Shown here piece by piece: positions 22,178 to 56,803 of a stretch of DNA of 64,000 nucleotides. The notes beneath the pieces are model-generated. The model saw only the letters and a list, made by a program, of their open reading frames with translations. It made no database searches and had not been told where the DNA came from. This DNA comes from Streptomyces chartreusis NRRL 3882 (GTDB lineage Bacteria > Actinomycetota > Actinomycetes > Streptomycetales > Streptomycetaceae), in the NCBI RefSeq assembly GCF_900236475.1, contig NZ_LT963352.1:4356501-4420500 (forward strand). Direction: 5' to 3'. Position 1 is the first letter of the stretch. Every line of letters begins with the position of its first letter. A program made the position numbers and the translations under genes.

Positions 22178-22205
22178 CCGAGCACTGACCGACCGCACCA
22201 CGGCA

Positions 22206-22240
22206 CCCCGGGTGCGGGCCTCACGGGCCCGCACCCGGGG
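22206..22240 (+). terminator. Terminator after the peptidase gene
   Basis: Perfect 15-bp GC stem CCCCGGGTGCGGGCC / GGCCCGCACCCGGGG with a TCACG loop, 29 bases after the stop. No long T-run follows, as is common in this genus. Confidence 0.85.
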
Positions 22241-22350
22241 TGTGCGCGTTTCCGGTGGTTCCCGCCTCTTGACCCCCTCTCGCGCGGGCACGTAGAACTG
22301 CACTCGCAGAAACCGGTTACTACCACTTACCGCAAGGGAAGGTCCCCTCG

Positions 22351-35325: not shown

Positions 35326-35362
35326 GAGGACGGCGACGTGACGCGATCACGTCGCCGTCCTC
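35326..35362 (+). terminator. Terminator after the pectate-lyase-like gene
   Basis: Perfect 16-bp stem GAGGACGGCGACGTGA / TCACGTCGCCGTCCTC with a CGCGA loop. Confidence 0.85.
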
Positions 35363-55197: not shown

Positions 55198-56418
55198 CTA
55201 CGCCGCCTCCCACAACTCGGTGCCGCGAGCCGCCACCCGGTCCGCGACACTCCGCAGGAACGCGGCGGCAGGCAGGCCCCCCAGCCGCCGCCCGTCCCGC
55301 AGGCGCGGTGCCACCTGGTCCGCTTCGGCCTCCCGGCCACCGATCACCGCCTGGTACGGGACCAGTCGAGCCGCGCGGATGCGAGCGGCGAGGGTGCCCT
55401 GCTCGGGGCCGGAGACCTCGGCGCGCAGGCCGAGTTCACGGGCGCGGCCCACGAGTTCGTGGGCATGGCCCGCCTGTTCGTCCCCGACCGGGAGCACCAC
55501 CAGCTGCACCGGGGCCAGCCAGGGCGGGAAGGCCCCGCCGTGGGCCTCGACGAGGTGGGCGACCGCGCGCTCCACACTGCCGATGATGCTGCGGTGCACC
55601 ATGACCGGGCGGTGCTTCGCCCCGTCGGCGCCGATGTAGTGCAGGTCGAAGCGTTCGGGCTGGTGGAAGTCGATCTGGACGGTGGAGAGGGTGGCCTCCC
55701 GCCCGGCCGGGTCGGCGATCTGCACGTCGATCTTCGGGCCGTAGAAGGCCGCCTCGCCCTCGGCGGCCTCGTAGGGGATGCCGGAGCCGTCCAGGACGTC
55801 GCGCAGCAGGGCGGTGGCCCGCCGCCACAGGTCCGGGTCCGCCACGTACTTGCCGCCCTCGCCGGGCAGTGAGAGGCGGTGGCGGACCGCCCGGATGCCC
55901 AGGTCCGCGTAGGCCCGGCCGATCAACTCCAGCGCGGCACGCGCCTCCTCGACGGCCTGCTCCAGGGTGCAGAAGATGTGCGCGTCGTTGAGGGTGATGG
56001 CCCTCACCCGGGTCAGGCCGCCGAGGACGCCGGACAGCTCCGAGCGGTACATGCCGCCCAACTCCGCCATCCGGAGGGGAAGTTCGCGGTAGCTGTGGGA
56101 GCGGGAGCGGAAGATCAGGGCGTGGTGCGGGCACAGGCTCGGGCGCAGCAGGACCTGTTCCGAACCGAGGTCCATCGGCGGGAACATGTCCTCGCTGTAG
56201 TGGTCCCAGTGCCCGGAGATCTCGTACAGCTCGCGTTTGCCGAGGACGGGCGAGTACACGTGCCGGTAGCCGGCCCGCTGTTCCGCCTCGCGGATGTACT
56301 CCTCCAGGGTGTGCCGCACGATCGCGCCGTCGGGCAGCCAGTACGGCAGCCCCGCGCCCATCAGCGGGTCGGTGTCGAAGAGGTTCAGTTCACGGCCGAG
56401 CCGTCGGTGGTCGTGCAT
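55198..56418 (-). CDS. thrS: Short threonyl-tRNA synthetase paralogue (no TGS or editing domain)
   Basis: 406 residues from ATG 56418, against about 650 for a full bacterial ThrRS. The class II catalytic core is present: motif 2 region (YRSELSGVLGGLTRVRAITLNDAHIFC) and motif 3 (HRPVMVHRSIIGSVER), with the zinc ligands Cys in RPSLCPHH and His residues, then the anticodon-binding domain. The N-terminal TGS and editing domains are missing. Such paralogues exist beside a full-length enzyme in Streptomyces and could be a backup or an inhibitor-tolerant form. A Thr-codon leader peptide and hairpin upstream suggest attenuation by charged tRNA-Thr. Confidence 0.9.
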   Translation of the reverse strand: MHDHRRLGRELNLFDTDPLMGAGLPYWLPDGAIVRHTLEEYIREAEQRAGYRHVYSPVLGKRELYEISGHWDHYSEDMFPPMDLGSEQVLLRPSLCPHHALIFRSRSHSYRELPLRMAELGGMYRSELSGVLGGLTRVRAITLNDAHIFCTLEQAVEEARAALELIGRAYADLGIRAVRHRLSLPGEGGKYVADPDLWRRATALLRDVLDGSGIPYEAAEGEAAFYGPKIDVQIADPAGREATLSTVQIDFHQPERFDLHYIGADGAKHRPVMVHRSIIGSVERAVAHLVEAHGGAFPPWLAPVQLVVLPVGDEQAGHAHELVGRARELGLRAEVSGPEQGTLAARIRAARLVPYQAVIGGREAEADQVAPRLRDGRRLGGLPAAAFLRSVADRVAARGTELWEAA

Positions 56419-56456
56419 GGTGGGCTCCTCGGGTCGGAGGCGAGCACCACGCGACG

Positions 56457-56482
56457 AAGCCCGGGGCACTCGCCCCGGGCTT
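56457..56482 (-). terminator. Leader hairpin (attenuator) upstream of thrS
   Basis: AAGCCCGGGGC / GCCCCGGGCTT, a perfect 11-bp stem with a four-base loop, on the minus strand 39 bases before the thrS start and 20 bases after the stop of the Thr-rich leader frame. No T-run follows, but terminators of this genus often lack one. Confidence 0.6.
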
Positions 56483-56502
56483 GAAGACGTCTACGTCAGC
56501 TG

Positions 56503-56565
56503 TCAGCGCGCCGGGACACTCTCCGGCGTCGTCGTGAGAGACGGGAACGGCTGGGCGCGCTTCAT
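56503..56565 (-). CDS. Predicted Thr-rich attenuation leader peptide of thrS
   Basis: A 20-codon frame (ATG 56565 to TGA 56503) encodes a peptide with LTTTPES in its middle: three consecutive ACG threonine codons directly upstream of a threonyl-tRNA synthetase gene. A second hairpin (CGCCGG / CCGGCG) covers the codons after the Thr run, and the strong hairpin 56457-56482 follows. The ATG lies seven bases after a TACGGT, so the message may be leaderless. Ribosome stalling at low Thr-tRNA would be expected to alter hairpin choice. Too short for codon statistics; support is positional. Confidence 0.6.
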   Translation of the reverse strand: MKRAQPFPSLTTTPESVPAR

Positions 56566-56572
56566 GGGCGTG

Positions 56573-56578
56573 ACCGTA
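56573..56578 (-). promoter_or_regulatory. Candidate -10 element of the thrS leader transcript
   Basis: TACGGT on the minus strand, seven bases from the leader ATG. No good -35 was found at the usual distance. Confidence 0.35.
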
Positions 56579-56803
56579 GCAGGGGCGTGGCGCGCGGGGC
56601 CACGGCTTTTCCGGCGGCGCGCGCACCGCGGGCGCGTCCGTGCACCACGGGCGTGTCCCCGCACCCGGCCGCCTCCCTCACCCGAACAGCCCGTCGCACT
56701 GGTGTGCCGCCCGTCGCGGTGGTGCCGTAAGAGCACGTACCCGATCTTGGAGAGCCCGCCCCGTCGGGAGCACCTCCATGAACTCCCCGCAGGAGGCCCT
56801 CCG

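Follow-up and report, generated by a model that had tools for sequence, protein, structure and literature searches.

We analysed a 64,000-nucleotide stretch of the Streptomyces chartreusis NRRL 3882 genome (contig NZ_LT963352.1, positions 4,356,501 to 4,420,500; hereafter the window) and found that a short threonyl-tRNA synthetase (ThrRS) gene, thrS, on its minus strand follows a small leader frame, thrL, whose run of Thr codons and surrounding RNA helices are conserved across Streptomyces. We consider it probable (roughly 0.8) that this region is a leader-peptide, or ribosome-mediated, attenuator sensing the charging of tRNA-Thr(CGU), serving an auxiliary ThrRS that lacks the N-terminal editing part. 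The original prediction, made from the letters alone for the interval 56418-56578, bounded by the thrS start and the -10 box TACGGT (56578-56573), had named a 20-codon frame with three ACG codons, a hairpin over its 3' end and a perfect 11-bp hairpin ahead of thrS. All of these are present on the minus strand with verified coordinates (Table 1): the first hairpin, CGCCGG/CCGGCG, spans the 3' end of the leader at 56528-56509, and the second, AAGCCCGGGGC-GAGT-GCCCCGGGCTT, lies at 56482-56457.

In the mechanism we propose, a WblC/WhiB7-type promoter would yield a leaderless transcript beginning at the thrL ATG. With tRNA-Thr(CGU) charged, the ribosome would pass ACG-ACG-ACG, reach the stop codon and cover R2 (R0 to R6 denote RNA segments of the leader region, and L-numbers the compared loci); R3:R4 would then fold and thrS would be off. 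With this tRNA uncharged, the ribosome would halt on the ACG run and cover R1, R2 could pair with R3 during elongation, and this pairing would delay R3:R4 such that thrS is made. Since thrS itself is nearly free of ACG, the remaining isoacceptors could still read its message once the ACG tRNA has run empty.

Table 1. Parts of the thrL-thrS locus, in positions of the window.
Feature	Position	Strand	Remarks
WblC/WhiB7-like motif GAAAAG	56606..56611	-	3 nt 5' of the -35; last base off GAAAWY; sequence, and spacing as in the promoter passages of PMC7157823
-35 TGGCCC	56597..56602	-	18 bp from the -10; by sequence; consensus TKGMNN
-10 TACGGT	56573..56578	-	7 nt 5' of the leader ATG; leaderless transcript expected
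Leader frame thrL, MKRAQPFPSLTTTPESVPAR*	56503..56565	-	ATG at 56565, stop ends at 56503, 20 codons; by sequence and conservation
Control codons ACG ACG ACG	56527..56535	-	ACG x3 in 163/163 distinct 33-nt blocks
R0, AGCGCGCC, start of the frame	56554..56561	-	complementary to 56512-56505 (GGCGCGCT); 98.4% of cells paired (121 sequences)
R1, CGCCGG	56523..56528	-	overlaps last Thr codon; pairing with R2 100% and near-invariant (121 sequences)
R2, GUCCCGGCG	56509..56517	-	partner of R1, or of R3 via GUCCCGG; 2:3 99.4% paired (121 sequences)
R3, 5' arm of terminator-like hairpin	56472..56482	-	by sequence and pair counts
Hairpin loop GAGT, core of R3b (56475-56467)	56468..56471	-	covaries with R5
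R4, 3' arm of terminator-like hairpin	56457..56467	-	97.6% paired (83 sequences)
R5, TGCTCGCCT	56438..56446	-	complements both R3b and the Shine-Dalgarno region
Shine-Dalgarno GAGGAG (within R6)	56425..56430	-	by sequence; R5:R6 80.5% paired (83 sequences)
Short thrS, 406 aa	55198..56418	-	ATG at 56418; class II core and anticodon-binding domain, N-terminal domains absent; ACG in 0/10 Thr codons

Taken by itself, the window proves nothing. The 168-nt stretch 56413-56580 folds at -82.4 kcal/mol (z -4.06), beating 200/200 dinucleotide shuffles. Three features of the same window weigh on the other side: Thr-Thr-Thr also occurs in 3/206 other small open reading frames (ORFs), the leader frame lies inside a 202-aa open frame, and perfect hairpins of at least 11 bp number five in the window while five shuffles held 0 or 1 each. 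Conservation across genomes is the deciding evidence. Perfect hairpins of 16 and 15 bp lie elsewhere in the window (22204-22242 and 35326-35362).

We compared 181 upstream regions, made up of 80 named loci (the best 80 of 381 relatives, nine from genera other than Streptomyces) and 101 places taken among the matches listed in 199 genomes of the genus, down to the last short-type match and leaving out full-length thrS at about 45% identity; the two sets overlap, and 172 leader regions are distinct. The leader ORF was present in 177 of the 181, including L122, whose frame shifts once past the Thr run. Of the four regions lacking it, L073 has a deletion in the Thr run, L185 is a partial second copy, L186 is 57% identical and belongs to a longer frame, and L140 is described below. 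With the start anchored right after the TAnnnT box, the Thr run was in frame and free of in-frame stops in 213/213 cases across 12 different spacings; these cases come from 224 distinct regions, eight of which lacked the core string and three such a start. This conservation suggests that the leader is translated. The predicted conservation of Thr run, frame and both hairpins across Streptomyces thus held up by frame counts and by the pair counts given below, which supports the proposal that a short thrS paralogue is preceded by a translated Thr leader and by hairpins that compete, in a genome that also encodes a full-length ThrS. Several loci count against so uniform a picture: L140 has lost the leader and retains the hairpin, with ACG in 0/8 Thr codons of its gene (L303); in L149, L150 and L092 the leader has no more than two Thr side by side; and the first leader Thr codon is ACC in L230 and L235.

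Of the 199 genomes of the genus, at least 99 have a short-type thrS match (two being fragments), and carriers outside Streptomyces include Streptacidiphilus, Embleya, Microbispora, Streptosporangium, Microtetraspora and Sphaerisporangium. A covariance model found the element in 84/394 genomes of the class at E <= 0.01, 58 of them at 2.7e-11 or better. Among 46 of those 58 inspected downstream of the element, a short thrS followed in 45; at L193 none lay within the DNA examined downstream. The remaining 26 genomes had best E-values between 5.5e-6 and 0.01, and the four inspected were mixed: in L235 both the short thrS and its leader deviate, the former being divergent and the latter a variant; the thrS of L237 is 57% identical and its core diverges; that of L236 is 45% identical, lacks the leader and by eye belongs to a longer ThrS; and L238 has no thrS. 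In S. chartreusis NRRL 3882 itself, the genome held no second copy of the element at E <= 1.

The 3' half of the leader is fixed at the nucleotide level, in a manner fitting mutually exclusive helices 1:2, 2:3 and 3:4. Across 163 distinct blocks of 33 nt, ACGACGACGCCGGA, the CCCGG core and TGA do not change, even at wobble positions, and codons in the middle differ. Wobble bases are invariant in all 163 for the three ACG, both CCG and TGA, and in 162 for GCG, 161 for CGC and 160 for GTC; the loop codons vary. These counts leave out nine more distinct sequences whose blocks differ in length, L149, L150 and L092 among them. In 121 sequences thinned from the 172 distinct ones, the paired cells range from 97.9% (3:4) to 100% (1:2), with R0 against the end of the ORF and 2:3 in between (Table 1). 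Helix 3:4 also covaries, with 10 double-change cells against 1.0 in shuffles, in an alignment of 83 sequences (85 picked for short distance and low redundancy, two dropped). Helices 1:2 and 2:3 are near-invariant; covariation is therefore no test of them, and their support lies in invariance at synonymous sites. At L166 the pairing of the two ends of the ORF shows a single compensatory change, from G-C to A-U, next to a mismatch.

Folds at successive nascent lengths, computed for the window sequence alone and with assumed ribosome footprint sizes, place these helices for stall-dependent refolding, as do the pair counts. With a ribosome on the first Thr codon, 2:3 was in the minimum-free-energy (MFE) structure at nascent lengths 98-104 and 3:4 by 107; with a ribosome at the stop codon, 3:4 was already present at 104. 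The full-length MFE fold of the window argues the other way, as it contains 3:4 in 5/5 ribosome states tried. RNAalifold on one alignment recovered 3:4 alone.

If the stretch acted as a structured RNA that binds a protein or a tRNA, with an incidental reading frame, the leader's 3' part would also be expected to be invariant as nucleotides, and L122 and L199, which shift frame past the Thr run and retain the RNA, fit that idea. We regard it as highly improbable given the 213/213 in-frame cases over 12 spacings with no in-frame stop, a mid-peptide that varies in sequence and length, and the lack of a match to any Rfam family. In L122 and L199 the end of the peptide seems dispensable. We also considered a T-box and rejected it: no Rfam family reached its gathering score in the window, and around the leader there were two chance small-RNA matches only (E 2.1 and 3.7).

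Having proposed a classical attenuator, the original prediction stands for the leader and the competing hairpins; the word classical is unsupported, because nearly all hairpins lack a U-run behind them and there is one more covarying helix, which extends towards the Shine-Dalgarno sequence. In the 172 distinct regions, 7 T in the 8 nt after the hairpin were seen once and 4 T in 11, with 0-3 in the remainder. We accordingly did not class the element as a classical transcription attenuator with an intrinsic terminator, the GC-rich hairpin being there and the U-run not. With the U-run missing in nearly all, control by the leader-peptide attenuator may act on transcription or on translation.

The further helix involves R3b, nine nucleotides comprising the 3:4 loop and its flanks, and the complementary R5, located between the hairpin and the Shine-Dalgarno sequence. 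Eight or nine of the nine pairs form in 178/191 sequences with a 4-nt loop (shuffles, 25.5%). In the 83-sequence alignment, 95.6% of R3b:R5 cells are paired against 43.6-59.5% in slid versions, and there are 16 double-change cells against 4.8 shuffled, a count that 0/500 shuffles reach. Loop and partner change together: AAGT pairs with CACTTGC at eight loci (CGCTTGC in one), GGGT with CACCCGC in 3/3, and there are single matches of GAAC with GTTCGCC (L233) and GCAC with GTGCGTC (L232). R5 is also complementary to the Shine-Dalgarno region, and R5:R6 has 29 double-change cells against 16.9 shuffled (0/500). The controls for all these counts are shuffles and slid versions, in which the relatedness of the sequences remains, uncorrected by a tree.

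Not all of this agrees. Thirteen of the 191 sequences have seven or fewer of the nine R3b:R5 pairs, including those with GACC, some GCAC and one GAAC loop; three GACC loci form 7 pairs, the GAAC locus L155 forms 6, and the GCAC loci other than L232 form 7 or 8. R5:R6 slid by one column gives 31 double-change cells, above the observed 29, and the observed number of R5:R6 pairs changed on both sides is reached by 82/500 shuffles. Predicted access points the wrong way as well: the Shine-Dalgarno is unpaired at 0.36 against 0.29 with shuffled upstream sequences (118 sequences; Wilcoxon p 8e-5), and holding R4 open alters its predicted access little (106 sequences). In an equilibrium model of the same number of sequences (106), stalling does not open the Shine-Dalgarno. 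Sequestration as an energetic effect was thus unsupported by predicted access, and we retain it on pair counts only. The R3b:R5 helix beside the Shine-Dalgarno suggests that the choice of hairpin controls access to the thrS start, as a second output or as the only one.

Taken to its end, that suggestion becomes purely translational attenuation, in which the hairpins set Shine-Dalgarno access alone, R5 pairing with R3b in the on state and with R6 in the off state, with no termination. We hold this possible, at lower odds than even. It would account for hairpins nearly all lacking a U-run, for R3b:R5 covariation above all 500 shuffles and the slid versions, for R5:R6 pairing that exceeds all shuffles and slid versions, and for the resemblance of R3b to R6; moreover, the ileS T-boxes of actinobacteria are predicted to act on initiation (relevant passages of PMC1262725). 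Its difficulties begin with timing: R5 is transcribed later than R4, so R3b:R5 needs R4 to be kept off, and the energy model gives near-zero R3b:R5 unless R2 and R4 are both blocked (mean 0.30). There is no excess closure of the Shine-Dalgarno, the R5:R6 double-change cells do not rise above one slid version, and T tracts like those of intrinsic terminators follow the hairpin in L166 (7 of 8 T) and L230 (five consecutive T).

Thr codons of the leader are nearly always ACG and the downstream short thrS has hardly any: in 75 short thrS genes (the 80 named loci minus five whose gene starts elsewhere in the locus), ACG accounts for 0/786 Thr codons. These are counts over related genes, which are not independent trials, and they carry no tree-based test. 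In 271 flanking genes, predicted by a simple script, ACG makes up 34.1% of Thr codons, giving 267.6 expected in 786 and making ACG the most depleted codon. This control is too generous; full-length thrS, with ACG in 53/356 (14.9%) and about 117 expected in 786, is the fairer yardstick. The same 75 genes use CTC, GCG, CCG and TCG at 35, 34, 55 and 19% of their codon families.

Against a strict partition, full-length thrS is likewise low in ACG (none in 6/20 genes), and the short genes are not wholly free of it: ACG occurs in 1/196 Thr codons of 22 further short thrS (L088-L117, not among the named loci; the one is in L099), in 3/369 of 47 class-search loci (one each in L208, L215 and L225, of other genera) and in 1/8 of L306. 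The scarcity could instead reflect the usual codon bias of an expressed gene and have nothing to do with the leader, a reading that draws on the low ACG of full-length thrS (14.9% against 34.1% in neighbours) and on L140, which has lost the leader and also has 0/8. We think this quite unlikely in view of 0/786 where about 117 would be expected at 14.9%, of the use of CTC, GCG, CCG and TCG in the same genes, and of leuS, which presents a mirror image.

In S. chartreusis leuS, CTC accounts for 0/73 Leu codons and ACG is used; thrS1 and alaS use both. Across 26 Streptomyces leuS genes (26 of 30 loci; L240/L241 and L274-L302), CTC makes up 55/1964 Leu codons, being absent in 13 genes and reaching at most 10 per gene, and ACG makes up 384/1429 Thr codons. 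Their leader peptide, MRAVRLLL, is encoded with CTT or CTC, then CTG, then CTT in 26/26, and the leuS genes use almost only CTG. On these counts leuS shows a looser version of the thrS partition. We found no second, leader-controlled alaS in the S. chartreusis genome.

Among 30 of 68 tRNA loci scanned, the tRNA-Thr genes comprised one CGU, one UGU and two GGU. ACG would be the sensitive codon of the leader, and the UGU tRNA might read it too. As a tentative generalization, to which we give slightly less than an even chance, leader-controlled synthetase genes of actinobacteria may obey an isoacceptor partition, the leader sensing mainly one isoacceptor and the gene avoiding its codons (ACG for thrS2; CTT/CTC against CTG for leuS); for thrS2, a hub R3 choosing R2, R4 or R5 could couple read-through to Shine-Dalgarno access. 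Selective charging explains the choice of attenuator control codons, and the E. coli thr leader, which likewise carries Thr codons, has eight ACC rather than ACG (relevant passages of PMC1183508). The codon partition offers a natural test of that theory: ACG to ACC swaps in the leader and ACC to ACG swaps in the gene are predicted to disturb control differently.

The promoter spacing suggests translation stress as a second input, next to the scarcity of Thr-tRNA to which the original prediction would confine synthesis of this backup enzyme. Among 169 distinct leaders with 75 nt of upstream sequence, 164 have TAnnnT (position -13 or -12 relative to the start of the leader), GAAA occurs in 124 and GAAAWY in 76 (shuffle means 6.1 and 0.8 for the latter two). 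We searched for the pattern [GA]AAAWY at spacings 20-36, and in 90 of the 91 leaders having both this motif and a -10, the spacing between them was 25-28; the window promoter has the right spacing with a motif one base off. WblC promoters consist of GAAAWY, 3 nt, a -35, 16-19 bp and TANNNT, so a spacing of 25-28 (3 + 6 + 16 to 19) matches them, and S. coelicolor thrS2 is among the WblC-activated genes in Table 1 of that paper (PMC7157823, passages on the regulon). This gene, SCO3778, is probably the orthologue of the short thrS of the window. In cells under ethanol stress, the threonyl-tRNA synthetase gene SCO3778 is also reported to have a binding site for sigma-E (PMC10771440).

The main signal could accordingly be antibiotic or translation stress through WblC, with a leader that answers drug-stalled ribosomes rather than Thr-tRNA charging. 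The WblC-activated list that includes thrS2 (PMC7157823, Table 1) and the conserved promoter spacing would fit; we nevertheless judge this unlikely, since a general stall sensor has no need of a run of a cognate and nearly single codon. With charging of tRNA-Thr(CGU) as the preferred signal, a charging sensor would sit on a gene listed in the WblC translation-stress regulon. The WblC-activated thrS2, alaS2 and trpS seem to match, by gene matching of our own, S. lividans genes that bear leaders (thrL, alaL and trpL2; passages of PMC7157823 and PMC8079986).

The leader itself is not new, contrary to the novelty first claimed for an attenuator on thrS. In S. lividans TK24, thrL upstream of thrS (SLIV_19412/SLIV_19410) has a leaderless start and one hairpin lacking a U-run, for which reason its mechanism was left open (passages of PMC8079986 on thrL); for this species, the reported start answers the refuting case of transcription that begins downstream of the frame. 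L150, which lies ahead of a 78% identical short thrS (L307 at the same place), encodes a leader peptide identical to the published one, MKRVRPFLETTPGFVPAR. The S. lividans and S. chartreusis leaders share orthologous position, peptide family, leaderless start (expected in S. chartreusis) and a hairpin without a U-run. What differs is the analysis: the thrL passages of PMC8079986 make no cross-species comparison and say nothing of helices in competition, of pairing between the loop and the Shine-Dalgarno region, of a WblC promoter or of a partition of codons. Within the literature searched, which we surveyed in part, we found no account of the 1:2/2:3/3:4 helices, the synonymous-site fixation or the codon partition, and none of the covariation beside the Shine-Dalgarno or the WblC-matching spacing for thrL. 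Comparing genomes gives an explicit model of the fold, in which the Shine-Dalgarno may be a second point of output.

Related leaders are known. Attenuators had been predicted for Streptomyces trpS and leuS in PMC1262725, whose relevant passages give T-boxes only at ileS, report no conserved structure for threonine operons and leave thrS unmentioned. These two, and trpL2, leuL2 and alaL (parts of PMC8079986), resemble thrL in having a cognate-codon leader, hairpins and a synthetase gene. The terminators of the trp operon and of leuS have poly-U tracts, unlike thrL (same passages of PMC1262725); trpL2, like thrL, lacks a U-rich stretch (PMC8079986, in its part on trpL2). A T-box riboswitch also senses tRNA charging 5' of synthetase genes; here the ribosome would read the signal. 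Vecchione and Sello reportedly described ribosome-mediated attenuation of an auxiliary TrpRS in S. coelicolor that resists indolmycin. That system shares an auxiliary synthetase with leader-peptide control and differs in that Trp has a single codon and so offers no choice of isoacceptor.

The short ThrS covers positions 165-562 of the 565-position ThrS model, and the solved structure that it matches best in sequence is 1nyq, threonyl-tRNA synthetase 1. In Anabaena, with a duplicated ThrRS, the second enzyme is likewise stress-induced and editing-impaired, but there the inducer is low zinc (PMC4787780). At the position of the short enzyme that aligns with E. coli Leu489, 119 of 121 distinct motif-bearing sequences have Gln, and the full-length ThrS of the host has Leu (alignment by eye). 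We take Leu489 of E. coli ThrRS to be a borrelidin contact, and the Gln at this position is only a lead towards a possible inhibitor-resistant auxiliary enzyme.

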